Source: Deltaproteobacteria bacterium
GTDB taxonomy: Bacteria > Myxococcota_A > UBA796 > UBA9615
Direction: 5' to 3'
Length of the DNA stretch: 37,019 nucleotides
NCBI GenBank assembly: GCA_002724675.1
Contig: PBPL01000223.1
Span: 1 to 37,019 of the forward strand
Part shown: positions 9,295-37,019 of the stretch, piece after piece
Numbering within the stretch: the first letter of the stretch is position 1
Layout of the letters: each line of letters opens with the position of its first letter
Program-made: the position numbers and the translations under genes
The notes under the pieces: generated by a model
What the model was told of the DNA's origin: nothing
Seen by the model: only the letters and a program-made list of their open reading frames with translations
Databases searched by the model: none

Positions 9295-9348
9295 GGTCAC
9301 GATGCTTGCACTTCGAGTCTGCTCGCCTGCTCGAGATACATCCTGAGC

Positions 9349-10131
9349 ATCGACCTACCCCCACGACGCCGTCTACGGCGCTCAACGCGTGTTCTGGGGC
9401 GCTGCCTGTTTAGCGGGCGGCCTGGAGCGGTGACCCTGCGCCCAGGGTCACCGGGCCAAGGATGGCGTTGGGCCCAGGCAGGCTCGCCACTCCAACGCTT
9501 GTGTCCCGAGCACTGGGCCCCCCTCCCCCATCGAAGCACTCTTCAGAGCCCCAGTGGGGCGCGAGTGCAGGTCTGCGAGCACGTCCTGGCCGCTTGTTTC
9601 CTGCAAGACTTGGACGACGTAGACATCCTCTTCGAGGGCGGAGAGGCCCCCATTCTCGATGGCTCGGCGGGCCCCTATCTCCGGGCTATACGTCACGCTG
9701 GCATCGCGGGAGAGCCCCGGCCCCATGGGCTTCGGCTCTCCATCACCTGGCAAAGACACACCGTCTCTTGGCCAGGCGACACCCAACCTGAGAGGGCCCG
9801 CACCTTCATCGATCTCAGCGACGGGGCCCAGTTGCTCTCGTCGGGGCTCTTTCGCGGCGCTCGACCTGACTGCGCGCTCGTCTTCGATTCAACGGGAAGC
9901 AGCCGCTACGGTGCACGGCCCAGGTTCCCCAAAGAGCCTGCCTGGCACAAGCTACTCGATCTGATGGGAGACCTCGGGCCCTACCGAGCCCAGGGACGGC
10001 TAGAGGGAGACCTGCACGTGAAAAACCCGGCTCACCAGTCCAATGGAGTCTCCATCCAGTCCGCTCTCGCCGACGGCCGACTTCGCTGGCAACGCGACGC
10101 CAAGGCATCCACTCTCACACACCGAAGCTAG
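9349..10131 (+). CDS. Divergent, compact LpxC-like UDP-3-O-acyl-GlcNAc deacetylase homolog; ORF track start is GTG 9430, but homology extends upstream to about 9349
   Basis: From 9349: IDLPPRRRLRRSTRVLGRCLFSGRPGAVTLRPGSPGQGW (LpxC N-terminus-like), CEHVLAACFLQDLDDVDILFEGGEAPILDGSAGPYL, ERARTF...DCALVFDSTGS, WHKLLDLMGDL, PAHQSNG (Zn/catalytic motifs). Confidence 0.75.
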   Translation: MDLPPRRRLRRSTRVLGRCLFSGRPGAVTLRPGSPGQGWRWAQAGSPLQRLCPEHWAPLPHRSTLQSPSGARVQVCEHVLAACFLQDLDDVDILFEGGEAPILDGSAGPYLRAIRHAGIAGEPRPHGLRLSITWQRHTVSWPGDTQPERARTFIDLSDGAQLLSSGLFRGARPDCALVFDSTGSSRYGARPRFPKEPAWHKLLDLMGDLGPYRAQGRLEGDLHVKNPAHQSNGVSIQSALADGRLRWQRDAKASTLTHRS

Positions 10132-10143
10132 AATCCACTCGTC

Positions 10144-11082
10144 ATGCCAACCACCACCCACTGGACCGCACCGCCGTGGCTCCAAGCCCTCCCCGACCAG
10201 TTGCCATCCTGGGTGGACGAGCGCCCACAAGTGCCATGGAACCTTGTGGGCTTGCTACGAAGTTGGTCACAGCACCCCAAGTCCATGGACTTTCTCGACC
10301 CCGAGTCCCCCAACTTTTCGTGGAAGGCTCTACAGACCCGCATGTACCAGGAGTTGCTGGACGGAGTCGTCGAGCTCAGCCCCACTCGGCCCCAGCGCAT
10401 CCTGGACGCCGCCTGCGGTGTTGGGCGGTTCCTGGTGCCTCTGGTGAACGACGGCCACGAAGTGGTGGGGATCGACGCCTGCCGGCCATCGCTAGAAGCA
10501 GCAGAACGGCACCTGGTTGGGCTATCTCAAGAATCGGGCAAGGGCTCCGCCACTTTAATTTGGGGGGATGTGGAGGAGCTCGTCGTCCCCTACGATCTCG
10601 TGCCCGACGAGTCCTTCGATGTCGTCCTAGCCATGGAGCTCTTGTGCTATCTGGCCGACCCAGCATCCGTGGCACGCTCCTTGGCCAAGCGACTCAGGCC
10701 AGGCGGCTGCATGGTGGTGTCCGTGGAGGCATGGCCGGGAGCGCTCCTGACCGACCTGCACGCCGCAAAAACTGTTGGAATGGAGCGCTGTTTGGAGGAG
10801 CGGGTGCTGGCGGTTCCTCTCGACCGGTGGGTGCATCCGTTCGACGCACAGGAACTGGCGTCTATACTGCAAGGCGCAGGCCTAGAGGTGCTCTCGATCC
10901 GTGGCACCCATTACCTACCCGATGGACCCATGATGGACCTGATTGACCCGAACCGCGTCGGAACACCGGACTACGACAACGAGGTCCTGCGACTGGAGGC
11001 TGCCTTGCGGCAAGAACCCGAGACAGCCCAACTAGCACGCGCTTGGTTGGCCGTAGCACGCGCACCGGAGACAAACCCATGA
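10144..11082 (+). CDS. Class I SAM-dependent methyltransferase
   Basis: RILDAACGVGRFLVPLVNDGHEVVGIDACRPSLEAAERH ... FDVVLAMELLCYLADPASVARSLAKRLRPGGCMVVSVE. Confidence 0.88.
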   Translation: MPTTTHWTAPPWLQALPDQLPSWVDERPQVPWNLVGLLRSWSQHPKSMDFLDPESPNFSWKALQTRMYQELLDGVVELSPTRPQRILDAACGVGRFLVPLVNDGHEVVGIDACRPSLEAAERHLVGLSQESGKGSATLIWGDVEELVVPYDLVPDESFDVVLAMELLCYLADPASVARSLAKRLRPGGCMVVSVEAWPGALLTDLHAAKTVGMERCLEERVLAVPLDRWVHPFDAQELASILQGAGLEVLSIRGTHYLPDGPMMDLIDPNRVGTPDYDNEVLRLEAALRQEPETAQLARAWLAVARAPETNP

Positions 11083-12617
11083 AGGTGATGCTCATCTTCA
11101 GCCCCCGCTACTACTGGCCTTTTGTCAGTGAGGGAGACAACTACCTAGTCCCCCAGAGCCTCGTGTACCTGTCGGCCGTCCTGAGAGAGGCCGGCCATGA
11201 CGTGCGCGTCTACGACTGCATGCCGCTTAAGATGGGTTGGCGGAGTCTCGAAAACGCCATGCGAGACTTCGACCCTGACGCAGTGTGCGTGGGCGAGAAT
11301 CACGCGCTGTACGCCCACGAGGCCATGAAGGTCGTGCAGCTGGCAAAAGATGTGGTGCCCCGAGCTCGCCGGATCGTGGGCGGCGCACACTTCACCAATC
11401 TCTACAACAAGTACATGTCCGAGCACCCCATCGAGTTCGTGGTGTGTGCGGAGGGCGAGTACACGCTCCGAGATCTCATCGAAGAGCTCGAGCAGCCCGA
11501 CCCGGACCCCTCCAAGGTCCAGGGGATCGTCTATCGACAAGGCGAGGGGGACGACGAAGAGTTCATAAAGACCCATCCCCGGGTGCTGATCGAAGACCTC
11601 GATGCGCTACCACTGCCCGCCTATGACCTGGTCCCCATGGACCGCTACGGCACCAGCAAGCTTCTCTTCTCTCCAGGAGGCACGACGATCCACCACAGCC
11701 GGGGCTGCACGGCCTCGTGCTCCTTCTGTGTGTGGTGGACCCAGATGGCGCATCGTGAAGAGTGGGACGACGGTACCGTGGAGCTCCGACCCCGATGGCG
11801 GACCAAGTCCGTGGACCGGACCATGGAGGAGATCGAGGAGCTCTACTACCGCTACGGCAAGAAGTGTTACGTGTGGGTGGACGAGAGTTGGAACATCGAC
11901 GCACGCTGGAACGACCAGTTCGCCGACGAGGTCATCCGCTCGGGGATGGACATCACCTGGTTCGCCTTCATGCGGAGCGACTGCATCATCCGTGATGAGA
12001 AGCGCGGCATCCTCGAGAAGCTGGTGCATGCGGGGCTTCGCCACCTGTGCATCGGGGTGGAGCGAGCAGAAGACGAGCGCCTGAAGCAATTCAACAAGGG
12101 CTTCTACAACAACGATCAGTTGCGAGAGACCTTCCGAATCCTCGACAAGTACCCGGCCATCTTCAAGCAAGCCACATTCATCGTGGGGACACGGTACGAG
12201 ACCCGGGAGAGCATGTTCCGACAGGCCGAGCTGGCCAAAGAGCTCAACGTCGACTACCCGGCATTTCATCCCATCACGCCCGTCCCCGGCACGCCGGTCT
12301 TCGACCAGGCCATGCAAGAGGGGTGGATCACACTGGAGGACTTCACCGAGTTCGACTGGATGACACCGATGATGGACAGCGACTACATGACCCGAGAAGA
12401 GATCGGGCGCGCGCTCTACGACATCAATCGCAAGTTCGTCACACCACGGTGGCTACTGAAGGGCTTGCTCTCCAAGAACAAGTACAAGCGCGATATGTAC
12501 AAGTGGTGGCTCAAGGTCGCTCTGGGCGTCTCCGTTGATGCACTGAAGCATCGCGTCAATCCGGTGAAAGAGCAGAGCTTTACCAACCTGGTCAAGCCCG
12601 ACTGGTACGACCTCTGA
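11079..12617 (+). CDS. B12-binding-domain radical SAM protein
   Basis: N-terminal B12-binding-like fold (LPQSLVYLSAVLREAGHDVRVYD, like the motif-less B12-binding domains), radical SAM CTASCSFC (CxxxCxxC); ATGA overlap with upstream methyltransferase. Confidence 0.9.
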   Translation: MKVMLIFSPRYYWPFVSEGDNYLVPQSLVYLSAVLREAGHDVRVYDCMPLKMGWRSLENAMRDFDPDAVCVGENHALYAHEAMKVVQLAKDVVPRARRIVGGAHFTNLYNKYMSEHPIEFVVCAEGEYTLRDLIEELEQPDPDPSKVQGIVYRQGEGDDEEFIKTHPRVLIEDLDALPLPAYDLVPMDRYGTSKLLFSPGGTTIHHSRGCTASCSFCVWWTQMAHREEWDDGTVELRPRWRTKSVDRTMEEIEELYYRYGKKCYVWVDESWNIDARWNDQFADEVIRSGMDITWFAFMRSDCIIRDEKRGILEKLVHAGLRHLCIGVERAEDERLKQFNKGFYNNDQLRETFRILDKYPAIFKQATFIVGTRYETRESMFRQAELAKELNVDYPAFHPITPVPGTPVFDQAMQEGWITLEDFTEFDWMTPMMDSDYMTREEIGRALYDINRKFVTPRWLLKGLLSKNKYKRDMYKWWLKVALGVSVDALKHRVNPVKEQSFTNLVKPDWYDL

Positions 12618-12669
12618 GGCCCTCGGGTGGTTCCCACGGAGCCCCAGAGCTACCGGCTGAGTCTCATCC

Positions 12670-13089
12670 ATGCGCATAGAAATCATCCGAGGGCTGCCTC
12701 TCGAGAGCCGAGGCCTCCGCGCCTTCCTGGGAACCATCGGTCTGATGGCCATCGCGGCAGCTCGGTTCTTCCCCTTCGACCAAATGCCGCCCATCTGCAC
12801 CTTTCGAAGGCTGACTGGTCACCCGTGCGTCGGCTGCGGCATGACCCGTTCTTGGGTCCATTTCGCCCACGGGCGAGCCGCGGATGCCTTCGTGCAAAGC
12901 CCCCTGGGTGCGGTGCTATTCCTGGCCATGATTGGGGCGCTCCTCTACCTAGCCCTCCGGTCATTCACCGGTATCCCGGCACTGCGAGTTCGCATGAATC
13001 CGGTGTCGTGGTGGGTGCTCGGCGGAACGAGCGTCGTGCTGGTCGCCATCCACTGGCTCTACCTGGAGCTGAGTGGTGTGGCTCTCTGA
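12670..13089 (+). CDS. DUF2752 domain membrane protein
   Basis: CTFRRLTGHPCVGCGMTRSWVHFAHGRAADAFVQSPLGAVLFLAM is the DUF2752 signature; hydrophobic helices. Confidence 0.85.
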   Translation: MRIEIIRGLPLESRGLRAFLGTIGLMAIAAARFFPFDQMPPICTFRRLTGHPCVGCGMTRSWVHFAHGRAADAFVQSPLGAVLFLAMIGALLYLALRSFTGIPALRVRMNPVSWWVLGGTSVVLVAIHWLYLELSGVAL

Positions 13090-13160
13090 GGAGCTCCATC
13101 CAGACCCCAACGAGCAACAACTCAACACCCCTGCCCGATCCCCGGTAGGATGCCGATGCC

Positions 13161-13970
13161 ATGCTCTCCACCGCCCGGCCTAAGCCAGCAGTAGACGAAG
13201 CTCTTGACTCCTCGCCGCAGACGCAAGGCGCACCGAGCATCTCCGTCATCGTGCCTGCCCACAATGAGGCGCGCAGCCTGCCAACCCTGGTCGAGCGAGT
13301 CGGTCAGACATTGCAGGCGGAAGGGTGGTCTTACGAGATCCTGGTTGTCGATGACGGAAGTCGCGACAACACACGCGCCGTGCTCGAGGAGCTCCAGGGT
13401 AACCACCCTCGGCTACGAGCCCGATTCCTCGATCGCCAGCGAGGCAAGTCCTACGCGCTCAGCTGTGGACTGCGAGCCGCTCGAGGCGACACTGTCGTGT
13501 TCATGGATGCCGACCTTCAGGATGTCCCGGAAGAGGTGCCTACACTGCTAAGAGCCCTTGAAGATGGGCCGCTCGACCTGGTCCAAGGGTGGCGCGAGCA
13601 CCGGGCAGACTCCCCCATCAAGACCCTGGCCTCCGTCGCGTTCAACCGCATGTGCTCCAGCCTCTCCGGACTACACCTCCACGACGTCAATTGTGGTCTC
13701 AAGGTGTTTCGTCGATCCGCGCTTACCGACCTGCGTTTGGCGGCTGGAGAGCACCGATTCGTGCCCCTTCTCGCTCACCGTACGGGGCTTCGGGTGGGCG
13801 AGGTGAAGGTGCAGCACTCGCCCCGTGCTTTTGGGAAGAGCCGGTACGGCTGGAGCCGCTACGGTGTCGGGCTCCGCGACCTCGTTCGCATTGCGCTGTT
13901 GCCGCGACTCCTCGAAGCGCTGCATCCCGACCGACAGAACCCAGGCGAGTCTCAGCACGAACTCACCTGA
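13161..13970 (+). CDS. Glycosyltransferase family 2 (dolichyl-phosphate mannosyltransferase-like)
   Basis: ISVIVPAHNEARSLPTLVERV...YEILVVDDGSRDNTRAVLEEL...DTVVFMDADLQDVPEEVP. Confidence 0.92.
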   Translation: MLSTARPKPAVDEALDSSPQTQGAPSISVIVPAHNEARSLPTLVERVGQTLQAEGWSYEILVVDDGSRDNTRAVLEELQGNHPRLRARFLDRQRGKSYALSCGLRAARGDTVVFMDADLQDVPEEVPTLLRALEDGPLDLVQGWREHRADSPIKTLASVAFNRMCSSLSGLHLHDVNCGLKVFRRSALTDLRLAAGEHRFVPLLAHRTGLRVGEVKVQHSPRAFGKSRYGWSRYGVGLRDLVRIALLPRLLEALHPDRQNPGESQHELT

Positions 13971-14003
13971 GCAAACCAGCGGGGCAGCCGCTATTCTCTG
14001 GCG

Positions 14004-15023
14004 GTGCCGCTACCGAACCACCCTTTCCAGATCGCCAACTCGCTAGCCAAGGCGCGCCTGGGGGGGCGGACCCCGCTGAAGGTCACACACCTCTTGACCT
14101 ACGCCTGCAACGTCGAGTGCGGCTTCTGCACACGCATCCACATCCCATCGGAGACCATGGAGCCACACCAGGTGCTGGCAATGATGGACTCTTTTGCTCG
14201 CCTCGGGACACGTTGGTGGGTCTTCAATGGTGGCGAGCCCACGCTCGTGAAGCCTCTCGGCCAATACATTGAGCGAGCGCGCTCCCTCGAGTTCCACGCA
14301 ACCATGGTCACCAACGGCACGGGCGTCGCTGCTCGCATCGACGAGCTCAAGAGACTGGACCTTGTCATCTGCTCGATCCATGGCCCACGAGACACCCACG
14401 ACCGCACACTGGGACGGGAAGGAGCCTTTGACGAGGCCATGCGAGGTGTACGCATGCTCCGGGACGAAGGCGTGGAGGTCTGCCTGCTCTGTGTACTCAA
14501 CGAACGCAATCGGGACTTGCTGGACGCGATGCTCTGCCTAGGAGAGGAACTGGGCGTCGGAGTCGCGTTCCAGCCCGTAGTGGAGACCCAACTGGGCGGA
14601 GCGCAAGTGCCCCTAGACTTGGTGCCCCGGCAGACTGCAATGACCGATGCGGTCAACTGGCTACTGGAGCAGAAAATGGCCGACCGACCGGTGTCCTGCT
14701 CTCGGGCCTACCTGGAAGCCCTCATGGACTCTTGGCCCAACCGACCGTTCGGAGCCAACTGCTGGGCAGGCCGACTGTTCTGTGAGGTCACACCCGAGGG
14801 CTTCGTAGTCCCTTGCTGCTCCGAAGAGGAATACACCTTTGCCCGCTGTCACGGCCCCACTGTGGGTTGGGAGCGGGCCTTCCTCGCGCTGCCAGACCGA
14901 TCTGAGTGCAGGTCCTGTTGGTTCAAGGGGCCGCAAGAGATCAACCTGCTGCTCAGCATGCAGCCCAGCCACCTGAAGCGAGCAGCCACCAACGCAGCTC
15001 GCGGCCGGCTTCTCTGGGACTGA
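14004..15023 (+). CDS. Radical SAM protein with SPASM/twitch-like C-terminal Cys cluster
   Basis: GTG start; LLTYACNVECGFCTRIH (CxxxCxxC); C-terminal NCWAGRLFCEVTPEGFVVPCCSEEEY...CRSCW. Confidence 0.88.
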   Translation: MPLPNHPFQIANSLAKARLGGRTPLKVTHLLTYACNVECGFCTRIHIPSETMEPHQVLAMMDSFARLGTRWWVFNGGEPTLVKPLGQYIERARSLEFHATMVTNGTGVAARIDELKRLDLVICSIHGPRDTHDRTLGREGAFDEAMRGVRMLRDEGVEVCLLCVLNERNRDLLDAMLCLGEELGVGVAFQPVVETQLGGAQVPLDLVPRQTAMTDAVNWLLEQKMADRPVSCSRAYLEALMDSWPNRPFGANCWAGRLFCEVTPEGFVVPCCSEEEYTFARCHGPTVGWERAFLALPDRSECRSCWFKGPQEINLLLSMQPSHLKRAATNAARGRLLWD

Positions 15024-15025
15024 CC

Positions 15026-16480
15026 GTGCGACTCGTCTTCGTGCAAAAGGATCCCATCGCCAACCTGGCGACGATGTGTCTTTCGGCCGTCGCCAAGGAG
15101 GCGGGACACCAGTGCGAGGTGTTGATCGATCCGGCCGAGCCACGGCTCCTCCAGTCCATTCGACGGCTGGACCCCGACGTCGTGTGCTTGTCAGCGACGA
15201 CAGGACAACATCTCTGGCAACTGAGGCTCGCCGAAGCCATCAAGGCCCGCTGGAACCCGGTGGTGCTCATGGGTGGCCCGCACCCGACCTTCTACCCTCG
15301 AGTGCTCGAAGAGAACGAGAGTGTCGACTACATCTGCATGGGCGAAGGCGAAGATTGCCTCCTGGAGTTGCTCGATGTCCTGGAGCACGGGGGCGACGTC
15401 GCCACGGTTCCCAACCTCGGCTGGCGCGATGACGACGGCATGGTGGTCTCCAACCCCATGCGCCCTCTGGTGCAGGACCCCGACGCCTGGCCCTTCCCGG
15501 ACCGGAGCATCTACGACCGATATGACTTCGTCTCGAAGCGGCGCACGATCTCGGTGATGAGTGCGCGAGGCTGCCCCTACAAGTGCACGTTCTGCTTCAA
15601 CGTCACGCTCCAAGAGATGTACAGGGGCAAGGGCAAGTACGTGCGCACGAAGTCCGTGGACTACATGATCCGCGAGCTAAAGGATGTGGTCGAGCGATAC
15701 CCGCACGTGCGACAAGTTGGGTTCGCCGACGACATCTTCGTCATCAACTTCCGCGGCTGGGGACGAGAATTCCTGGAGCGCTATGGGCGCGAGATCGGCC
15801 TGCCGTTTTCCTGCCTATTGAGACCCGACCTGGTCACCCCAGAACTCGTGCGTTCCTTGGCCGAGGCCAACTGCAAGATGATCAAGATTGGTGTCGAGAC
15901 CGGTGACGAAGACCTACGCATTCGAGTCTTGAAGAAGGGACGACTCGACAACGAACAGATGCGAATTGCCGGGCAGCTCATCAAGGAAGCCGGAATCCTC
16001 TTGTACACCTTCAACATCGTCGGCATCCCGGGCGAGGATCTCGATCTCGCCATGAAGACCGCCGAGTTGAACATGGCCATGGGCGCCGACCACGCCTGGG
16101 CGAGCATGTGCCAACCCTACCCAGGGACTCACCTGGAGAGTTGGTCGGTAGAACATGGCTTCTTGGATCCGGAAACAGCTCAACGAGATTTTCAGTACAC
16201 GTACTTCATCGACACACCACTGGAGCTCGACCAGAAGCGGGAGCTCTGCAACTTCCAGAAGCTTCTACCGCTGCTGGTCAGCTTCCCGCGACTTCGTCCC
16301 CTTGTGGAGCGGGCGGTCCAGCTCCCACCCAACCGAGGCTTTGAGTTGCTGTTCAAGGCGCACTACGCCCTCGGCCTGGCAAAGACCGGGCAGCTGGACT
16401 GGGTAGACATGGCGAGGCTCCTGCCGCTCACTGCCAACTACTGGACTGGCGACGGCACGCTCGATCCCGGAACTATGTAG
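15026..16480 (+). CDS. B12-binding-domain radical SAM protein
   Basis: GTG start at 15026 (VRLVFVQKDPIANLATMCLSAVAKEAGHQCEVLID), radical SAM CPYKCTFCF, IKIGVETGDEDLRIRVLKKGR. Confidence 0.9.
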   Translation: MRLVFVQKDPIANLATMCLSAVAKEAGHQCEVLIDPAEPRLLQSIRRLDPDVVCLSATTGQHLWQLRLAEAIKARWNPVVLMGGPHPTFYPRVLEENESVDYICMGEGEDCLLELLDVLEHGGDVATVPNLGWRDDDGMVVSNPMRPLVQDPDAWPFPDRSIYDRYDFVSKRRTISVMSARGCPYKCTFCFNVTLQEMYRGKGKYVRTKSVDYMIRELKDVVERYPHVRQVGFADDIFVINFRGWGREFLERYGREIGLPFSCLLRPDLVTPELVRSLAEANCKMIKIGVETGDEDLRIRVLKKGRLDNEQMRIAGQLIKEAGILLYTFNIVGIPGEDLDLAMKTAELNMAMGADHAWASMCQPYPGTHLESWSVEHGFLDPETAQRDFQYTYFIDTPLELDQKRELCNFQKLLPLLVSFPRLRPLVERAVQLPPNRGFELLFKAHYALGLAKTGQLDWVDMARLLPLTANYWTGDGTLDPGTM

Positions 16481-16512
16481 CTGCACACCCCTCGCCCCAC
16501 CTCGAGCCAACT

Positions 16513-17589
16513 ATGAACACGACGGACACCGAGCAGCCTCGGGTCTCCATCATCGTTCCGGCCTATCAGGCCGCGAGTCATCTTCCCAGCTGTGTCGAAG
16601 CCTTGAGTCATCAGACGGCAGCCAAAGACAGCTTCGAGGTGCTGATCGTCGACGACGGCAGCTCCGACAGAACAGCCGAGACCCCACTGCCACAGGGCTA
16701 CCGACTACTCCACCACGAGCGCAACCGAGGTGCAGCCGCCGCCCGCAACACCGGCGCTCGAGCGGCCCGCGGGCAGGTGTTGCTCTTTGTGGACGTGGAC
16801 GTCGTGCCGTCCGAAGCGCTCGTCGAGGCCGTACTGGATCTGTTCTTCGACCCGAGCACCGGTGAGATCCGCTGTCGTGCTGCCACGGGGTGTTACGACC
16901 CCGAGCCTGCCAATGACGGCTGGTTCCCCCGGTACAAGGCCTTGTGGACATGGTTCTGCTGGAGACGAACCGGCGAAGCGCGAAGCGACAGTGACCACCT
17001 ACAAGGAGCGCTGTGCGCTATCTCCAAGGCTATTTTCTGGCAGTTGGATGGCTTCGACGAGGGCTACCTGGGAGGCAGCGTAGAGGACTACGAATTCTCC
17101 ACGCGCCTCCGGTCCGATGGCTCGCAGATCATGTTTGACGCACGCATCCGGGGAAAGCACCGGTTCCCCGGCTTCCTGACAGTGGCCCGCAATTACTGGG
17201 CCCGAACGCGCATGTGGCTGAGGCTTCGCTTCGGCACACAGTCGCCAAGAGCCCGGACACCCCTGCGCTCGGGGCAGGCCAATGCTCGGGCAGGCGCTGG
17301 TGCCTTGTTGGCCCTGGCTGCAGTTGTCACTCAGACTCTTAGCTTCCTACCCATCGCCATCGACCACGGGTCACTTCTGCAGGGCCTAGCGCTGGCCAGC
17401 GCCGTGGGCTACCTAGCTACTGTCTCGTCCTTTCTGATCTTCGCCCTCCGACGCCACGGCATCCCCTTTGCTAGCTACGCTCTGGTCGTCCACTTTGCGC
17501 TGTCGGTTGTTGTGGGCATCGCCGCCTTGTCAGCGCCCTTGGGTGCGGGCAGCCACCGGAGCGCTGCTACCACGGGCACCACAGTCTGA
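16513..17589 (+). CDS. Glycosyltransferase family 2 with C-terminal transmembrane segments
   Basis: VSIIVPAYQAASHLPSCVEALSHQ...FEVLIVDDGSSDRTAE...RGAAAARNTGARAARGQVLLFVDVDVVP; hydrophobic C-terminus. Confidence 0.9.
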   Translation: MNTTDTEQPRVSIIVPAYQAASHLPSCVEALSHQTAAKDSFEVLIVDDGSSDRTAETPLPQGYRLLHHERNRGAAAARNTGARAARGQVLLFVDVDVVPSEALVEAVLDLFFDPSTGEIRCRAATGCYDPEPANDGWFPRYKALWTWFCWRRTGEARSDSDHLQGALCAISKAIFWQLDGFDEGYLGGSVEDYEFSTRLRSDGSQIMFDARIRGKHRFPGFLTVARNYWARTRMWLRLRFGTQSPRARTPLRSGQANARAGAGALLALAAVVTQTLSFLPIAIDHGSLLQGLALASAVGYLATVSSFLIFALRRHGIPFASYALVVHFALSVVVGIAALSAPLGAGSHRSAATTGTTV

Positions 17590-17682
17590 GGGGAACCAGC
17601 CAAGTTCCTGTGACGGATCCCGCTGGGGGACTTGTCATCTCAGGCTTCTTCATTACAGTTCCTTGCCCGAAGGATAAACCTG

Positions 17683-18405
17683 ATGGACAAGGTCCGCGCC
17701 ATTTGCCGGCGGGAGTTCGCCGGCTACTTCAACACACCACTCGGCTACATCGTCGTAGCCGTGTTTCTGCTGTGCTTTGGCTTCTTCTTCTTCTACGTCG
17801 TGGACGTGCTGGGCTCCCAGGTGGCATCCATGCGCGGGCTGTTCCAGCTCGCCCCGCTGATCCTGGCGGTGCTCACCCCCGTAGTCACCATGCGACTGGT
17901 TGCTGAAGAACGCGCCAATGGCACGATTGAGTTGCTGCTGACCCTACCGGTGACTGAGTGGCAGGTGGTCTTGGGGAAGTATCTCGCGGCCATCGGAGTC
18001 GTGGCGCTCGCCACGGCGCTGACGCTCCCCTACGCAGCAACCCTCATGCTCTTGGGCGACCTCGACCTCGGCCCTGTCCTCGGCGGCTACTTTGGCCTGC
18101 TCCTGATGGCCGGTGGCTATGTCAGCCTAGGCTTGATCTGTTCGTGCATCACCAACAGCCAGGTCGTCGCAGCACTGTGGGCTCTGCTGTTGTGCATCGG
18201 TTTCTGGATCGCAGACAAGCTGGCGGCAGGCCTACCGGGTGGACCTCTCTCGGACGGTCTCCGATCGCTCGGCTTTGGCTATCACTTCCGCAACATCCAG
18301 CGCGGCGTTCTGGACACTCGTGACCTGCTGTACTTCCTGTCGGTCATCGTGGTCTCGCTTGCACTGTCGGTGCTCGTGCTCAAGCGACAGCGGCTTCGGA
18401 CCTAG
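17683..18405 (+). CDS. ABC transporter permease, GldF-like
   Basis: MDKVRAICRREFAGYFNTPLGYIVVAVFLLCFGFFFF...EERANGTIELLLTLPVTEWQVVLGKYLAA. Confidence 0.88.
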   Translation: MDKVRAICRREFAGYFNTPLGYIVVAVFLLCFGFFFFYVVDVLGSQVASMRGLFQLAPLILAVLTPVVTMRLVAEERANGTIELLLTLPVTEWQVVLGKYLAAIGVVALATALTLPYAATLMLLGDLDLGPVLGGYFGLLLMAGGYVSLGLICSCITNSQVVAALWALLLCIGFWIADKLAAGLPGGPLSDGLRSLGFGYHFRNIQRGVLDTRDLLYFLSVIVVSLALSVLVLKRQRLRT

Positions 18406-18414
18406 GAAGTAGAC

Positions 18415-20001
18415 ATGCAAGACCGTCGGTCCCTTTGGGCAAACGCCGTCCTCACGCTCCTGCTACTGGCAGCGATCTTTGCCTGTCTGAACACCTTGTC
18501 GCGGGACAGCTACGCTCGCATCGACCTGACCCGAGACAAGGAGTTCACCCTCAGCCCCGCCGCGCGGACAATCCTCCGCGGCCTGGAGGATGAGCTTCGC
18601 ATTGAGGTGTTCCTCAGCGAGAACTTGCCCCCACAGTTCGCCCTGCACACCCAGCGCATCAAGGACAAGCTCGCTGAGATGACGGCAGTCTCCCCCGTGC
18701 CGATTCGGGTGACCTACATCGACCCAGGCGAGAGCGACGAGGCCACCGCTAGGGCTCAGCGACTGGGTGTCTCTCCCCGGGAGACCTCCATTCGAAGCCG
18801 CGGGAAGATGGAGGCGCAGGTCACCTGGCTCGGGCTCTCCATTCACTACCGAGACCGGAGCGAGGTGTTGCCGTTCATCGACAGCACGGCGTTCCTGGAA
18901 TACGAGATCGGCCGAGCGATCCGGTCGCTTCAGACAGAGGCTGGGCGAGCGGTCATTGGCTGTGTCACGGGGCACGGCGAACCAGACTTCGCGGCCGCCG
19001 CAACGGAGCAGGGCAATCAACTGGCTCCACTGGCCAACGTGCTTCAAGAGAACTACGACCTAGTCTCAGTGGACCTCACGGCCGACGTGCCCGAGAACAT
19101 CGATGTGCTCCTCTTGATGGGACCCCAGCAGCAGCTGTCTGAAGCCGAGCTGTTTCGCCTCGACAGCTACGTCATGAAGGGCGGCGCACTGGGAGTGTTC
19201 CCCCTCGTGTCGCTGCCCGATCCCCAGACGCTCCAGCTGCGGCCCGCGCCAGTAGACCTGTCGCCGCTTTGGGCCACCTGGGGCATCGAAGTAGACAAGA
19301 GCCTGGTCATCGATCGTCACCTGAACGGGCTAATCCCCCTACCAGCCACAATTCGCACGGCAAGAGGCGCGATGCGAATCAACCGGCGCGTGAGCTCGCC
19401 GCTGGTCCCGATCGCCAACAACCTGGACCGCGAGCACCCCATCACGCGACGCCTAGACACCATTGTGGCCCCGTTCGCATCGTCCATAGACGCGCAGGCT
19501 GCGGTCTCCGATGTGGCGATTGACGCCACAGTGCTCGTCGCCACCTCCGACCGCTCCACTGCAGGAGCAGTAGTCACCTCTCTAGACCCGCGCCTAACGC
19601 CGGCGCCCAGCGACAAGGAGATCGCTGGGCCCCACGCGGTGTTCGTCAGCCTCAAGGGCAGCTTTGCCTCCGCCTGGGCAGGCCGAGTGCCGGAGGACAT
19701 CGGCGACAGCAGCACCGGCATCGAGGTCCCCGAGAGGTCTCCCGACGGCACCCGACTGGTCATTGGAACCTCCTTCGAGATGCCCATCGCCAACCCCCAG
19801 CTGCTCCTGGCCATGGTCGACTGGATGGCTGCCGATGAGACGCTATTGGGCATCCGGCCAAGCATGAGCGCACCGCCAGTCCTAGAGCTGCCCGAGGGTG
19901 GGGGGCTCGAGCTCATCAAACAAGCGAACGTAGTGGGAATGCCCCTCCTGGTCGTCCTCTTTGGTGTCCTGCGCCTACGTCGACGAAAGCGTCGGGGATA
20001 G
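18415..20001 (+). CDS. GldG-like ABC-type transport system auxiliary protein
   Basis: N-terminal TM, RIDLTRDKEFTLSPAARTILRGLEDELRIEVFLSENLPPQF...; C-terminal TM and RLRRRKRRG; follows the GldF-like permease. Confidence 0.87.
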   Translation: MQDRRSLWANAVLTLLLLAAIFACLNTLSRDSYARIDLTRDKEFTLSPAARTILRGLEDELRIEVFLSENLPPQFALHTQRIKDKLAEMTAVSPVPIRVTYIDPGESDEATARAQRLGVSPRETSIRSRGKMEAQVTWLGLSIHYRDRSEVLPFIDSTAFLEYEIGRAIRSLQTEAGRAVIGCVTGHGEPDFAAAATEQGNQLAPLANVLQENYDLVSVDLTADVPENIDVLLLMGPQQQLSEAELFRLDSYVMKGGALGVFPLVSLPDPQTLQLRPAPVDLSPLWATWGIEVDKSLVIDRHLNGLIPLPATIRTARGAMRINRRVSSPLVPIANNLDREHPITRRLDTIVAPFASSIDAQAAVSDVAIDATVLVATSDRSTAGAVVTSLDPRLTPAPSDKEIAGPHAVFVSLKGSFASAWAGRVPEDIGDSSTGIEVPERSPDGTRLVIGTSFEMPIANPQLLLAMVDWMAADETLLGIRPSMSAPPVLELPEGGGLELIKQANVVGMPLLVVLFGVLRLRRRKRRG

Positions 20002-20005
20002 ACCA

Positions 20006-21361
20006 ATGCAACTGGACCGAACCAACCGGTTTCTGCTCGCGACGACCGCGCTCTTGGCCATCGCGACGTTGATTCGTCTCGGTCAGAGCGTGCAGGCACC
20101 CGAACCCATGTGGTCGACAACCGAGGTCACTGACTCCGAAGTCCGAGGGATCACCTTCAAGAAGCCCGACGGTGCCGTCGAACTGGAGCGATCGGGCATG
20201 GGTTGGCGCATGACAGCACCGGCAGCTTTCCCGGTCGAGGCACAAAAAGTGGTCGCCTTGCTGCGGGACTGGCAAGAGCCGTTCGCCCCGGATCTGAAGC
20301 TGGCAGACAGTGTCTCCGATGACGACCTAGCCACATACGGACTCGACGAAGCCCAGCGCACCGAGTTCGCACTGTTGGCTGCTTCGGGGCCGTTGGTGGA
20401 GCTACACATCGGCAAGAGCATCGCCGGCGGCAGCCACTATCTTCGCCGCCCCAACGACCGGGGTGTCTATCGGGGGCGCGTACCGGGTGTGCTGCGGCTC
20501 AAGACCGGCAAAGACGCATGGCGAGACATGACGGTGTTGGCCATCGACGAGGACAGCATCATCTCCTTGCAGCTCAGCAACAGCGACGGAGAGTTTCACT
20601 TCGTGCGGAGCCCAACAAGCCCGGGCCAGCAGCCTGAGTGGCAAGCTCGAGCTCCCGAAGGGCTCCGTGTCGCCCAGCGAAGCCTAGACTCCATGGCGAA
20701 GAGCCTGAGCAAGCTCAAAGCCACCAAGTTCCTCGAGGGTAAAGAGGCCGAAGCGGGCCTGGCCCGCGCCAGTCTCGACAATCCCCGAGTGACCGTCCGC
20801 GTCGGCAGCAAAGAAGAGGGGGGCGACCAGCACACACTCCGCTTCGGAGCCGACGAACAAGCCAACAGCACGGTCTTCGCCCAGGTCGAGGGACAAGACA
20901 GCCTACTGGTGCTTTCCGTGGCGAGTCTCAAGCAGTTCGACAAGAGCAAGAAGGACCTCCAGGACCGCACGGTGCTCAGCTTGGACCGCGAGGCAGGGGT
21001 CGAAGTGCGCTTCATCGAAGGCGAACACACAGTCGTCGCCAAGCCCGACGGAGCAAGAGACTGGAAGGTGCTCGAGCCCAGCGGCGTCGACTCCAACAAC
21101 ACCGAGCTCAAGCTGGCCATGAACAGCCTGGTGAACATGCAGGCGGTGGAGCTCCAGAGCGACAGCGAACGAGCGGAGACTGGACCGGACAGCCCACGCA
21201 TCGAGATCAAAGGCCCCAAGGGCTCTCAGATCCTGCGGATTGGCTCGGGACCCCGTGACGGCAAGTACCTAGGCACGGTAGACGGTCGAACCGAACTCTT
21301 CGTGCTTCGAGGAACAGTCGTGGAGCGACTGCTCAAGGTCTTCCGGGCCCTAAAGCCGTAG
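20006..21361 (+). CDS. DUF4340 domain-containing protein
   Basis: N-terminal TM; ...EVRGITFKKPDGAVELERSGMGWRMTAPAAFPVEAQKVVALLRDW and LASYGLD-like 'DLATYGLDEAQRTEFALL'; follows GldFG-like genes, typical of DUF4340. Confidence 0.82.
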   Translation: MQLDRTNRFLLATTALLAIATLIRLGQSVQAPEPMWSTTEVTDSEVRGITFKKPDGAVELERSGMGWRMTAPAAFPVEAQKVVALLRDWQEPFAPDLKLADSVSDDDLATYGLDEAQRTEFALLAASGPLVELHIGKSIAGGSHYLRRPNDRGVYRGRVPGVLRLKTGKDAWRDMTVLAIDEDSIISLQLSNSDGEFHFVRSPTSPGQQPEWQARAPEGLRVAQRSLDSMAKSLSKLKATKFLEGKEAEAGLARASLDNPRVTVRVGSKEEGGDQHTLRFGADEQANSTVFAQVEGQDSLLVLSVASLKQFDKSKKDLQDRTVLSLDREAGVEVRFIEGEHTVVAKPDGARDWKVLEPSGVDSNNTELKLAMNSLVNMQAVELQSDSERAETGPDSPRIEIKGPKGSQILRIGSGPRDGKYLGTVDGRTELFVLRGTVVERLLKVFRALKP

Positions 21362-23989: not shown

Positions 23990-24604
23990 ATGCCGTCGCC
24001 CAACACCCACAACGAGACAGGACACGTGAAACTCTTTTACCGCCGGTTCGCGATCTTCGTTCCCATCCTGGTCGTGCTGGATCAAGTCACGAAGTACTGG
24101 ATTCGCGAGACCATGATCTACGGTTCTCGTCGGGAGGTGATCCCGGGGTTCTTCAACCTCACCTACCAGGAGAATCGGGGCGCTGCCTGGGGCATCCTCG
24201 CCGATGCTGAGTACCGACTCCCGTTCTTCGTGGTCGTCACCATCATCGCCTTCGTCGTCATCCTCGGTTACTACCGAAACCTCAAGGAAGACGAGGGGCT
24301 GATGGCCTGGAGCCTTCTGTCGATCTTCGCAGGTGCCCTGGGCAACTTCATTGATCGACTCAGTCCTCGCCACAGCGTGACGGACTTCCTGGATTTCTAT
24401 GCCTCCGGGTGGGCTGCTCCCATCGCTCGCAAGATCATCGGGCACAACCACTGGCCCTCGTTCAACGTGGCGGACAGCTGCATCACCATCGGGGTGGTCT
24501 TGTTCGCTTACCACGCGATCGTCCTCGAGGTCCGAACCCGCAAAGCCGCCAAGGCGGCCCCTGCCGACGAGTCAGCGGCGGAGTCCACCGAACCGCAACC
24601 CTGA
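23990..24604 (+). CDS. lspA: Lipoprotein signal peptidase II (LspA), copy 1
   Basis: VVLDQVTKYWI, NRGAAWGIL, GALGNFIDRL, VTDFLDFY, PSFNVADSCI. Confidence 0.92.
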   Translation: MPSPNTHNETGHVKLFYRRFAIFVPILVVLDQVTKYWIRETMIYGSRREVIPGFFNLTYQENRGAAWGILADAEYRLPFFVVVTIIAFVVILGYYRNLKEDEGLMAWSLLSIFAGALGNFIDRLSPRHSVTDFLDFYASGWAAPIARKIIGHNHWPSFNVADSCITIGVVLFAYHAIVLEVRTRKAAKAAPADESAAESTEPQP

Positions 24605-25230
24605 TGCGCCACGGTCGCATCTTCTTGCTGTTGGTCACCAGCCTCGTGGTGTTCGACCAGGGGACCAAGATCGCCATCCGCCAGTCTCTGCCGGTAGACG
24701 ATGCCGGCTGGGCAGCCTCCTGCACCTTCGACTGCCGGGCCAACCCGACTCACGCCGAGTTCCACCCCGAGCGAAAGACACGACACCAACACTCGGTCGT
24801 GCCCAGGATGTTCAACATCGTGCACACCCGGAACCGGGGAGCGGCGTTCGGCATCTTGGCCGGACACCCCTACCGCATGGCGCTCTTCAGCGTGGTCACG
24901 ATGCTCGCCTTCGTGTTCATCCTGGGCTACTACCGACGTCTGAGAGAGGACGAGGGCTTATTGGCTGTGGCGCTCAGTTGCGTGTTCGCGGGCGCCCTGG
25001 GCAACTTCATCGATCGGCTTCTCTACCGACAAGTAACCGACTTCCTACAGTTCTACGTGCCTGAAGACACGAGCACCGGCGCCCTGCTGGTCGACATGTT
25101 CGGGAGCAGCCGCTGGCCTTCGTTCAACGTGGCGGACAGCTGCATTTGTGTCGGTGTCGCGCTCCTACTGCTCAACACAGCCCAGGAATACCGGCGGCTC
25201 GCAGCTTCTGAACCGGAGGCCGGACCGTGA
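24604..25230 (+). CDS. lspA: Lipoprotein signal peptidase II (LspA), copy 2
   Basis: VVFDQGTKIAI, NRGAAFGIL, GALGNFIDRL, VTDFLQFY, PSFNVADSCI; TGATG overlap with copy 1. Confidence 0.9.
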   Translation: MRHGRIFLLLVTSLVVFDQGTKIAIRQSLPVDDAGWAASCTFDCRANPTHAEFHPERKTRHQHSVVPRMFNIVHTRNRGAAFGILAGHPYRMALFSVVTMLAFVFILGYYRRLREDEGLLAVALSCVFAGALGNFIDRLLYRQVTDFLQFYVPEDTSTGALLVDMFGSSRWPSFNVADSCICVGVALLLLNTAQEYRRLAASEPEAGP

Positions 25231-26066
25231 ACACCTGGCTCGTCAAGTGGCACGTCCCCATCCTGGGCGACATCGCCATCTCTACGTACTTTGCCTGCCT
25301 CGTGCTGGGCTTGGTGCTTGCTCTGCACGTCTGCGTCCGCGAAGCCAAGCGCAGCGGAGAAGACCCCCTGCTTTTCTTCCGGCTAGGCCTGATCGGCATT
25401 GGATGCGGGCTCATTGGCGGACGACTGGGCCATGTCCTCCTGGCGCGCCCCGACATCTACCTAGAGAATCCCGTTCGCGTCCTCGAGTTCTGGCGCGGAG
25501 GGATGGTCTTTTACGGGGGCGCTATCGGGGGGGCTATCGGAGTCCTGCTGGCCTGCCGCCGTTACAAAGTGAACCTCCTGAGAGCCTGCGACATCTGCGC
25601 TGCACCTCTGATGCTGGGCCTGGCCCTGGGACGCCTTGGCTGCCTGTCGGCTGGCTGCTGCTTTGGCCGCCCCATCGACTGGCCCTGGGGAATCGAGTGG
25701 CCCTGGGCCGTCACCTTCTTGAGCGGCCAGGTGCCCTCCCCCCTTCGAGGCATCCCGCTGCATCCCACCCAGGCTTACGCGGCATTCAACGCCCTGGCCT
25801 TGTTCGTGTTGTTGATCGAGGTGCGCCGACGCCAGCGCTACGCAGGCCAGGTAACTGGAGTGCTACTCGTAGCCTATGGCTTGAGTCGAAGCATCATCGA
25901 GTTGTTTCGCCTCGACCTAGAGCGCGGCTTCGTGTTCGAGCAATGGCTCGGCCAAGTCCTCTCCACCTCTCAGGCCGTTTCCATCCCCATGGTGCTCGCC
26001 GGGATCGTGTTGCTTGTTCGAGGCTCAAGAACCCACGACAGCGACCGCCCCAGCAGCCCCAACTGA
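25227..26066 (+). CDS. lgt: Prolipoprotein diacylglyceryl transferase
   Basis: GLIGGRLGHVLL, FWRGGMVFYGGAIGG, GRLGCLSAGCCFGRP, HPTQAYAAFNALALF. Confidence 0.95.
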   Translation: MNTWLVKWHVPILGDIAISTYFACLVLGLVLALHVCVREAKRSGEDPLLFFRLGLIGIGCGLIGGRLGHVLLARPDIYLENPVRVLEFWRGGMVFYGGAIGGAIGVLLACRRYKVNLLRACDICAAPLMLGLALGRLGCLSAGCCFGRPIDWPWGIEWPWAVTFLSGQVPSPLRGIPLHPTQAYAAFNALALFVLLIEVRRRQRYAGQVTGVLLVAYGLSRSIIELFRLDLERGFVFEQWLGQVLSTSQAVSIPMVLAGIVLLVRGSRTHDSDRPSSPN

Positions 26067-34714: not shown

Positions 34715-37019
34715 TCAGGGCCACACAGGAACAGAGATCATGTCCTGAAGCTCGGGGAAGTCCCACATGTGCGTGGTGTAGCCCAGGTCGACCAGAGAAA
34801 AGTTGGCGTCCCCATCGTTGACGGCCAGCATCAAGGTGCGGTCTAGATCCCACCATGGGTCCTGGTACGACACCACCAGATCGACATCGCCATCTGCATC
34901 CCAGTCATAGGGATAGAGCCAGCCATAGCCAGGCAGGTTGTCGTCGGGCAGCCCACCCCCTGGATCCGGTGTGACATCAAAGCTCTCTACACCGAGACCT
35001 GAGGGATTGCCGGGATTGAGTGGGTCCTGGAGCCAGATCCAAGTCTGGCCCGCATCCCCGTCATCATCGAGACCACCGATGAAGTCAACCAATCCATCGC
35101 CATTGAAGTCGGCCATGGCGGCTCCGTTGATTCGGCGAGAGAGCACGAACACCCCAAAGATGCCCGCGTCGAAGCTGCCTGTACCAAGCCCCTCGTGCAC
35201 CTGACAGTAGGTAAGCGGCGCAATGGAGAACGACTGGTTGCTGCACTCGACAAGGTCTACGAACCCGTCGCCGGTCACATCCAAGGGCGGCGAGATGAAC
35301 AACTCGCGGGTGTCCGGCGTCTGTGGGTTGGGGTGCCAGCTGAGGTCGAAGGGGCGAGCCCCTGTTGTGCTGCTGGGGATTCGCTCCCACTCCACACCAT
35401 CGCCTTCATTAAGCCAAGTCCACCCCCGCCCGTCGAAGAAGTCCCAGCCGACTACATCCAGATCGCCATCGTTGTCCAGATCCGCAGCCGCGTAAGGGTC
35501 CGACAGTCCCCACAGATCCATGCCGTCGTTGTTGTCGATGTTGATCTGATCGAAGCCCCCCACGCAGTCGGATCGGAACAGGCGAGCATGCATCACGTTG
35601 TTGGTGCCCAAGACCTGCTCTCGACTCGTGATGAAGTCTTGATACCCATCCCCATCAAAGTCTCCGGCAACCGCACCAAAGGCGGTTCCTAGACCGAATG
35701 GGTTGTAGGTCTCCGGAGAGTCGAATTGTCCGGAAGATCGGTCATAGGCCCACAGCTCCACAGAGTCTTCGTGGATGCCTTTGACAAAGAACTCATCGTC
35801 CACTGCCCCATCGTCCACGACGTCGTTGCAGTCATTGTCGACATCGTCACAGAGAATCTCGTCGGCATCTGAGTTGATGTCGTCATCGGTGTCATCACAG
35901 TCACCGTCGCACTCCGCCTCACCGTCACCGTCGTCATCGGTCTCTTGGCCGGGCTCACCAGGGTCGCCCGAGTCCTCGAGGCCATTGCAGTCGTTGTCGA
36001 CACCGTCACACCGCTCGGGCGCTCCTGGATAGTCGTTCGCTGCCGCGTCGTTGCAGTCGGCAAGAGCACCGTAGGTGGCTAGGCAGCCTGGATCATCGGC
36101 ATCGAAGTAGCCGTCCGAGTCGCCATCAAAGCCCTCGTCGACAGAGTCATCACAGTCGTTGTCCTCGTCATCGCAGATCTCGTCCGCATCGGGATGGATG
36201 AGGTCTTGCTCGTCGTCACAGTCCCCATCCACAGCGGAGTAGCCACCCGGCTGGTCACAAGCGGTGACCGTCTGGGCCGTCAGACCGTAGTCGTCACCAT
36301 CCCCATCCAGGTACCAGGTCGACGCTTCCGGCCCATCATCTTCGTCCGTGTCGTCGTTGCAGTCGTTGTCCAGCCCATCACAAAGCTCTGGAGCCTCTGG
36401 GTTGGTGAGCTCATACGTGTCGTCGCAGTCCCCGTCGACAGCCGCGTAGCCCACGGGCTGCTCGCAAGCCGAGACTGTGTCGCTCCCTAGACCATAGTTG
36501 TCACCGTCCACATCCAGGTACCAGGTCGATGCGTCGGCGCTATCGTCCTCGTCGGTTCCCGGGTCGCAGTCATTGTCCACTCCGTCGCAGACCTCAGCCT
36601 GACCGGGATACACAGCCGGATCCGAATCGTCGCAGTCGCCCTCGCTTACAGTGAAGCCATCCGAGTCGGCATCGATCTCCGCCGAATCGTCGTCGTCACC
36701 GGTGTCGTCATCGCCCACATCATCATCGTCGTCGTCGTCGCCGGTGTCGTCGTCGTCACCTAGGTCATCGTCGTCGCCGGTATCGTCATCGCCCGCATCA
36801 TCGTCGTCGCCCGCATCATCGTCGTCGCCCGAGTCATCGTCGTCACCGGAATCATCGTCATCACCGGAATCATCGTCATCACCCGTGTCGTCGTCATCGC
36901 CGGTGTCGTCGTCACCCGTATCGTCGTCACCTAGGTCATCGTCGTCGGCGGTGTCGTCGTCGTCGTCATCGTCGCCGGTGTCGTCGTCGTCATCACCAGC
37001 GTCGTCATCGTCATCGCCG
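34715..37019 (-). CDS. Asp-rich, MopE-type Cys-motif and FG-GAP/VCBS repeat surface (lipo)protein, 5' end beyond the window
   Basis: CDGVDNDCDPGTDEDD / CDGLDNDCNDDTDEDD / CDDEDNDCDDSVDEG / CDGVDNDCNG / CDDVDNDCNDVVDDG repeats, FG-GAP-like motifs (AGDFDGDGYQDFI, AADLDNDGDLDVVGWD, MADFNGDGLVDFIGG); the frame stays open upstream of 36718 through Asp-rich codons as far as read (about 36780-36870), with the same composition continuing to the window edge. Confidence 0.85.
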   Translation of the reverse strand, partial: GDDDDDAGDDDDDTGDDDDDDDTADDDDLGDDDTGDDDTGDDDDTGDDDDSGDDDDSGDDDDSGDDDDAGDDDDAGDDDTGDDDDLGDDDDTGDDDDDDDVGDDDTGDDDDSAEIDADSDGFTVSEGDCDDSDPAVYPGQAEVCDGVDNDCDPGTDEDDSADASTWYLDVDGDNYGLGSDTVSACEQPVGYAAVDGDCDDTYELTNPEAPELCDGLDNDCNDDTDEDDGPEASTWYLDGDGDDYGLTAQTVTACDQPGGYSAVDGDCDDEQDLIHPDADEICDDEDNDCDDSVDEGFDGDSDGYFDADDPGCLATYGALADCNDAAANDYPGAPERCDGVDNDCNGLEDSGDPGEPGQETDDDGDGEAECDGDCDDTDDDINSDADEILCDDVDNDCNDVVDDGAVDDEFFVKGIHEDSVELWAYDRSSGQFDSPETYNPFGLGTAFGAVAGDFDGDGYQDFITSREQVLGTNNVMHARLFRSDCVGGFDQINIDNNDGMDLWGLSDPYAAADLDNDGDLDVVGWDFFDGRGWTWLNEGDGVEWERIPSSTTGARPFDLSWHPNPQTPDTRELFISPPLDVTGDGFVDLVECSNQSFSIAPLTYCQVHEGLGTGSFDAGIFGVFVLSRRINGAAMADFNGDGLVDFIGGLDDDGDAGQTWIWLQDPLNPGNPSGLGVESFDVTPDPGGGLPDDNLPGYGWLYPYDWDADGDVDLVVSYQDPWWDLDRTLMLAVNDGDANFSLVDLGYTTHMWDFPELQDMISVPVWP
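36690..37019 (-). repeat. Imperfect ~18-bp tandem repeats encoding G-D-D-D-D-(S/A/T) Asp-rich linker
   Basis: Reverse strand reads GAT/GAC runs punctuated by GGC/GGT plus a Ser/Ala/Thr codon; reaches the window edge. Confidence 0.88.

Follow-up and report, generated by a model that had tools for sequence, protein, structure and literature searches.

Few cobalamin-binding radical S-adenosylmethionine (SAM) enzymes are known to be non-methylating: BchE (the anaerobic Mg-protoporphyrin monomethyl ester cyclase), OxsB, HpnJ, PbsB, and the enzymes proposed for ladderanes and for the rings of glycerol dialkyl glycerol tetraethers (GDGT) (PMC13142503). HpnJ belongs to the HpnI-HpnK-HpnJ synthesis of bacteriohopanetetrol cyclitol ether, where the radical SAM enzyme rearranges a glycosylated lipid (PMC12583986). 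Another radical SAM enzyme, Tes, combines a rubredoxin with two auxiliary-cluster domains (PMC9433317). Here we describe a run of seven genes in which three radical SAM proteins accompany two family 2 glycosyltransferases (GT2). The run lies on a 37,019-nucleotide stretch of DNA ("the window"), which is a single contig (PBPL01000223.1; G000:C185) of a deltaproteobacterial/Myxococcota-type metagenome-assembled genome, G000 (4.8 Mb, 90% complete). In order, all on the + strand at 10144–17589, the genes encode a methyltransferase (MT), a B12-type radical SAM protein (rSAM1), a DUF2752 protein, a glycosyltransferase (GT2a), two further radical SAM proteins (rSAM2 and rSAM3), and a second glycosyltransferase (GT2b). 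The cluster is real and conserved, and it brings known enzyme classes together in a combination that has no named pathway. It is not one cassette: the run consists of two evolutionary modules, A (MT and rSAM1, 10144–12617) and B (DUF2752-GT2a-rSAM2-rSAM3-GT2b, 12670–17589). The more general finding is that rSAM1 is an unnamed, widely distributed family.

Two modules in one gene run

The split into modules comes from tblastn searches of the window's proteins against the contigs of relatives, together with gene calls. (G001, G002, G004, and G005 are relatives from the same family as G000, and L-numbers denote homologous loci.) Module A continues a housekeeping block, YebC-RuvC-RuvA-RuvB-DUF192-LpxC, and this block with MT and rSAM1, or most of it, is kept across the window's family. 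The same Ruv-LpxC-MT-rSAM1 synteny, again complete or nearly so, is found in L068, L092, L094, and L112, with rSAM1 identities of 50–58%; the more distant loci that share it are labelled Myxococcota or Deltaproteobacteria. Module B is confined to the window's own family. Both G002 and G004, which are congeneric species, keep its gene order intact; their rSAM2 is 68–69% and their rSAM3 72–74% identical to the window's proteins. G005, from another genus, has part of module B on a short contig (the end of rSAM3, GT2b, and then GldF; in G002, DUF4340 lies downstream instead). rSAM2 was found in 3 of the 71 genomes of the class, and a search of 379 genomes of the phylum at E 1e-110 gave rSAM3 matches in this family only. 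An earlier sequence-only reading of this DNA had proposed conservation of the neighbourhood in relatives as a check, and the neighbourhood is conserved: class-wide for module A, and as an intact order in G002 and G004 for module B.

In G001, which represents a fourth genus and is 95% complete, rSAM1, a Yip1-like protein, and DUF2752 stand in a row, and this site lacks GT2a, rSAM2, rSAM3, and GT2b. rSAM2 has no match above E 1e-40 in G001, and the only close rSAM3 homologue there is a 44% paralogue that is found in other genomes of the family too. As the four genes are missing together, they were presumably gained or lost as a block. In G004, three opposite-strand genes (a B12-type radical SAM protein, an unassigned protein, and a kinase/FGE-sulfatase fusion) lie between the modules. 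G002 has homologues of these genes next to module B, and G005 has them next to rSAM1, which suggests that both genomes share this arrangement.

LpxC, the last gene of the housekeeping block, had been read as a marker of the pathway. It is the only LpxC in G000 and part of the Ruv block, so we consider it an ordinary LpxC, and we rejected the idea of a duplicated pathway gene. It keeps the EH and HKxxD motifs and is divergent: Pfam matches two stretches and leaves the middle unmatched, as it does in G001, G004, and G005. Its start codon is uncertain (a GTG at 9430 is possible).

Pfam matches and gene calls bear out the families and coordinates that had been given for the seven genes, including the ATGA overlap at 11079 (4 nt shared by MT and rSAM1) and the 2-nt gap at 15023/15026 (Table 1). 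The gaps that follow the overlap are 52, 71, 33, 2, and 32 nt, and the next gene begins 42 nt after GT2b. For DUF2752, the tabulated frame is correct rather than a longer open reading frame at 12627–13148. The composition of the seven genes is coding-like (GC at third codon positions of 0.71–0.83, within the range of neighbouring genes). We rejected recent horizontal acquisition because neither overall nor third-position GC shifts relative to the neighbouring housekeeping genes. A promoter and terminator scan gave about as many sites as shuffled sequence, and a plasmid search returned only matches at ~30% identity or less. We found no paper on such a gene neighbourhood in a literature search that covers few subscription journals.

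Table 1. Genes of the two modules and their immediate neighbours, with positions in the window.
Feature	Location	Coordinates	Strand	Basis
MT	Module A	10144–11082	+	Class I SAM methyltransferase, UbiG-like Methyltransf_23; Pfam PF13489, 71 bits
rSAM1	Module A	11079–12617	+	B12-binding 55 bits and Radical_SAM 39 bits (Pfam); clade sister to BchE
DUF2752 small membrane protein	Module B	12670–13089	+	PF10825, 55 bits
GT2a	Module B	13161–13970	+	Putative ArnC/DPM-type GT2, DADLQ motif; Pfam GT2 114 bits
rSAM2	Module B	14004–15023	+	Radical_SAM only, 70 bits (Pfam); SPASM/twitch-like C-terminal cysteines
rSAM3	Module B	15026–16480	+	B12-binding 65 bits and Radical_SAM 69 bits (Pfam); neither HpnJ nor BchE
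GT2b	Module B	16513–17589	+	GT2 87 bits (Pfam); C-terminal membrane helices; MftF/EpsD-like
LpxC	Upstream neighbour	9346–10131	+	Genome's sole LpxC, divergent; outside the proposed pathway
GldF-GldG-DUF4340 block	Downstream neighbour	17632–21361	+	Profile matches

Elsewhere in the window, a NUDIX gene precedes two tandem genes for lipoprotein signal peptidase (SPase II; 23990–25230), which are followed by prolipoprotein diacylglyceryl transferase (25227–26066). At 34715–37018, a long acidic protein containing five metal-binding repeats of the MopE type runs off the end of the contig.

The rSAM1 family

Homologues of rSAM1 (52–83% identity) occur in 46 of the 71 genomes of the class, or 46 of the 50 outside one family (f3), with one copy per genome at E 1e-120. 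The 21 genomes of f3 have no rSAM1 match, and those that were searched mostly have few or no matches to B12-type radical SAM proteins, unlike the other families. Homologues are also found in Omnitrophota, Elusimicrobiota, Calescibacterota, UBP15, and some other groups, and Nanoarchaeota may have distant members of the family. The CxxxCxxC motif is invariant over 45 homologues, whose alignment has 44 invariant positions.

Most occurrences of module A lack module B. Of 79 homologous loci (counted without a background control), 38 have MT upstream of rSAM1 on the same strand, 29 have another B12-type radical SAM gene no more than 4 kb away, and 12 have a GT2 or PMT_2 gene no more than 5 kb away. 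In Omnitrophota, the neighbours of rSAM1 include Wzy_C, UbiA, PMT_2, and GT2 proteins. One 5.1-kb contig from Candidatus Omnitrophota (L108, 156–4303) has rSAM2-like, rSAM3-like, and rSAM1 genes in tandem, and another Omnitrophota contig (L105) has an rSAM2-like gene, rSAM1, and two GT2s. In UBP15-type loci (L119, L138, and L143), an alternative-heme operon (ALAD, radical SAM proteins, AhbA/B-like proteins, and a class-III aminotransferase) directly precedes rSAM1, and PMT_2 follows it. Arrays of radical SAM genes surround rSAM1 in the Omnitrophota and Myxococcota loci L101, L110, L116–L118, and L145; similar arrays lie on contigs C18, C21, C25, C32, and C176 of G000, whose 4.8 Mb contain 45 radical SAM matches.

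The sequence-only reading had recognised no housekeeping radical SAM protein in the run. The radical SAM proteins fit no named family: rSAM1, rSAM2, and rSAM3 all stay below every NCBIfam cut-off. Both rSAM1 and rSAM3 have the architecture of the cobalamin-binding radical SAM class, with an N-terminal B12-binding domain and a CxxxCxxC core. A maximum-likelihood tree was built with BchE and HpnJ proteins from the same phylum that score above cut-off. In it, rSAM1 forms its own clade (support 100/100), which is sister to BchE (96/96), and rSAM3 falls in a separate group (100/99) that contains neither BchE nor HpnJ. BchE membership, a comparison that the sequence-only reading had raised, does not hold for rSAM1, which lies outside the BchE clade and scores 196.9 bits on the BchE model TIGR02026 against a cut-off of 481. 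Even the affinity to BchE is weakened as a functional call because many other B12-type radical SAM proteins in the phylum equal or exceed this score (200–265 bits).

The AlphaFold models of rSAM1 (pLDDT 89.7) and rSAM3 (87.5) match the solved structures of AprD4, MgmA, TsrM, CysS, OxsB, and TokK about equally well, which confirms the class and not the substrate. AprD4, the sugar-acting radical SAM 1,2-diol dehydratase of apramycin synthesis, is the top fold match of rSAM1, the second of rSAM3, and the top sequence match of rSAM3 in the PDB. As a sister to BchE that is single-copy across most of the class and extends to several candidate phyla, the rSAM1 family is a promising place to look for a new reaction.

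What the modules may do

Both glycosyltransferases had been described as polyprenyl-phosphate-type, which fits GT2a, by its core and motif, and not GT2b. GT2a is nearest to ArnC and to enzymes of the dolichol-phosphate mannose synthase (DPM) type; it reaches 130 bits to ArnC structures and is below the NCBIfam ArnC cut-off. In G002 and G004, GT2a orthologues are predicted to carry two or three C-terminal membrane helices, but GT2a in the window ends before them (269 versus 336–338 amino acids). Given its length and the 33 nt to the next gene, its membrane domain has been deleted. The count of two B12-type enzymes and one SPASM-type enzyme stands in part: rSAM1 and rSAM3 have B12 domains, but rSAM2 has a SPASM-like cysteine pattern while its Pfam SPASM score is below threshold. 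The pattern (C..AG...C...P(E/D)G.(V/I).PC with a later C..C) is kept in all five aligned homologues, including distant ones from Omnitrophota.

In each of the three genomes where the pair is seen, 1–4 nt separate rSAM2 from rSAM3, suggesting that the two are translationally coupled and share a substrate. The top NCBIfam match of rSAM3 is the HpnJ model TIGR03471, at 125.4 bits (452 bits short of the cut-off of 577.6), and in the tree rSAM3 does not group with the five above-cut-off HpnJ proteins of the phylum. rSAM3 has 19 matches in G000. The 44% paralogue (G000:C21:12838–14253, L053) is kept beside an HU gene in G001, G002, and G004, and another B12-type radical SAM gene adjoins it in G000, G002, and G004.

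We tentatively propose that the run comprises two adjoining units, and that module B builds an envelope glycolipid or lipid-linked sugar and alters it with radical chemistry. GT2a would load a sugar onto a (poly)prenyl phosphate or a similar lipid, and GT2b, anchored in the membrane, would extend the lipid-linked sugar. rSAM2 (probably of the auxiliary-cluster type) and rSAM3 (the cobalamin type) would each make a 5'-deoxyadenosyl radical and alter unactivated carbons of the sugar or lipid by methylation, dehydration, rearrangement, or ring formation, with DUF2752 as a putative membrane accessory. For rSAM3, the chemistry may be a methylation, an AprD4-like dehydration, or a rearrangement like those of HpnJ or OxsB. 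Module A is probably a separate, older two-enzyme modification, kept by the majority of genomes in the class and found in several further phyla, and its target is probably a membrane-associated small molecule. MT and rSAM1 would have their own job, although the modules may share an end product in this family. A bolder version, which we think unlikely, is that the rSAM1 reaction is BchE-like and non-methylating, forming a ring in or oxidising a membrane lipid or a lipid-linked glycan. In one family, module B would then tailor this product, and the outcome would be a class of bacterial envelope lipid not yet described.

Several observations weigh against our proposal. The near-equal fold matches indicate the superfamily and not the substrate. 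The conservation of module B comes from a few genomes of one family, in which the whole region is syntenic. GT2a in the window, without its membrane domain, could be decaying. And just 12 of the 79 rSAM1 loci have a GT2 or PMT gene nearby, a count that lacks a background rate.

An unusual-lipid pathway had been proposed for the run as a whole. The GT2 and DUF2752 content does fit an envelope lipid or glycan, but a single pathway, in which LpxC and all seven genes make one unusual lipid or glycolipid, seems unlikely. It would account for the co-directional, tightly spaced run, whose adjacency is kept in the family, and for the pairing of rSAM1 with rSAM2-like, rSAM3-like, or GT2 genes in Omnitrophota (L105 and L108). 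However, MT and rSAM1 are found class-wide, mostly without GT2, rSAM2, or rSAM3; the single-copy LpxC belongs to the Ruv block; and opposite-strand genes part the modules in G004. It is quite improbable that rSAM1 and MT modify a tetrapyrrole, as BchE does. The sister relationship to BchE and the alternative-heme operon before rSAM1 in UBP15-type genomes would fit, but the BchE score of rSAM1 is far below the cut-off and is exceeded by many proteins of the phylum, and the heme context comes from one lineage, with Ruv/LpxC, glycosyltransferase, or radical SAM arrays around rSAM1 elsewhere.

For module B, a cyclitol-ether head group made by analogy to HpnI-HpnK-HpnJ would explain why GT2 and B12-type radical SAM genes occur together, and HpnJ as the top NCBIfam match of rSAM3 and the sugar-acting AprD4 as a good solved match are consistent with it. 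We nevertheless consider this very unlikely: rSAM3 stands apart from the HpnJ proteins of its phylum, no squalene-hopene cyclase was found in the genome (90% complete), and the cluster has no gene for the HpnK deacetylase. There is even less to be expected from the idea that rSAM2 and rSAM3 modify a ribosomally synthesized and post-translationally modified peptide. SPASM-type and B12-type radical SAM enzymes often act on peptides, and there are weak NCBIfam matches to PqqE, StsB, SkfB, and ApyD, but the gaps of 2–71 nt in module B leave no room for a separate precursor gene, two GT2s are present, and the small conserved open reading frame beside the rSAM3 paralogue is the HU protein. Under our proposal of two units, the family-restricted module B beside rSAM1 would be a small, testable gene set of the glycolipid type.

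Relation to named systems

Tes/GDGT-MAS and Mss are radical SAM enzymes that act on lipids, as those described here may do, and a membrane-spanning lipid had been suggested for this locus. A Tes-type route to such a lipid is not supported. Tes has no entry among the sequence matches listed for rSAM1, rSAM2, and rSAM3 or among the best 50 fold matches of rSAM1 and rSAM3, and the architecture is wrong: rSAM1 and rSAM3 carry B12 domains, and the radical SAM core of rSAM2 begins as early as residue 31, which leaves no room for the N-terminal domains of Tes. A hopanoid-type lipid fares no better. G000 has no match to PF13243 for squalene-hopene cyclase (at 90% completeness), and neither B12-type enzyme groups with true HpnJ, so we rejected a hopanoid pathway for this genome.

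Other systems are closer in part. BchE is the nearest named clade to rSAM1 and has the same B12-binding and radical SAM architecture, but rSAM1 is a separate, fully supported clade, and no bacteriochlorophyll genes were recognised beside rSAM1 in the annotated loci. GT2a shares the GT-A core and the DADLQ motif with ArnC/DPM-type enzymes, and differs in the window by the loss of the membrane helices that its orthologues have. AprD4 is only ~20% identical, and rSAM3 scores 72 bits on the NCBIfam AprD4 model, with a cut-off of 500. The run differs from HpnI-HpnK-HpnJ in that rSAM3 falls outside the HpnJ clade, the cluster has no HpnK, and no squalene-hopene cyclase was found in G000. Still, the logic of that system is the nearest known: its glycosyltransferase and its B12-type radical SAM enzyme are encoded side by side and act on a lipid-linked sugar, and, by analogy, module B could possibly work like this system while standing outside it.

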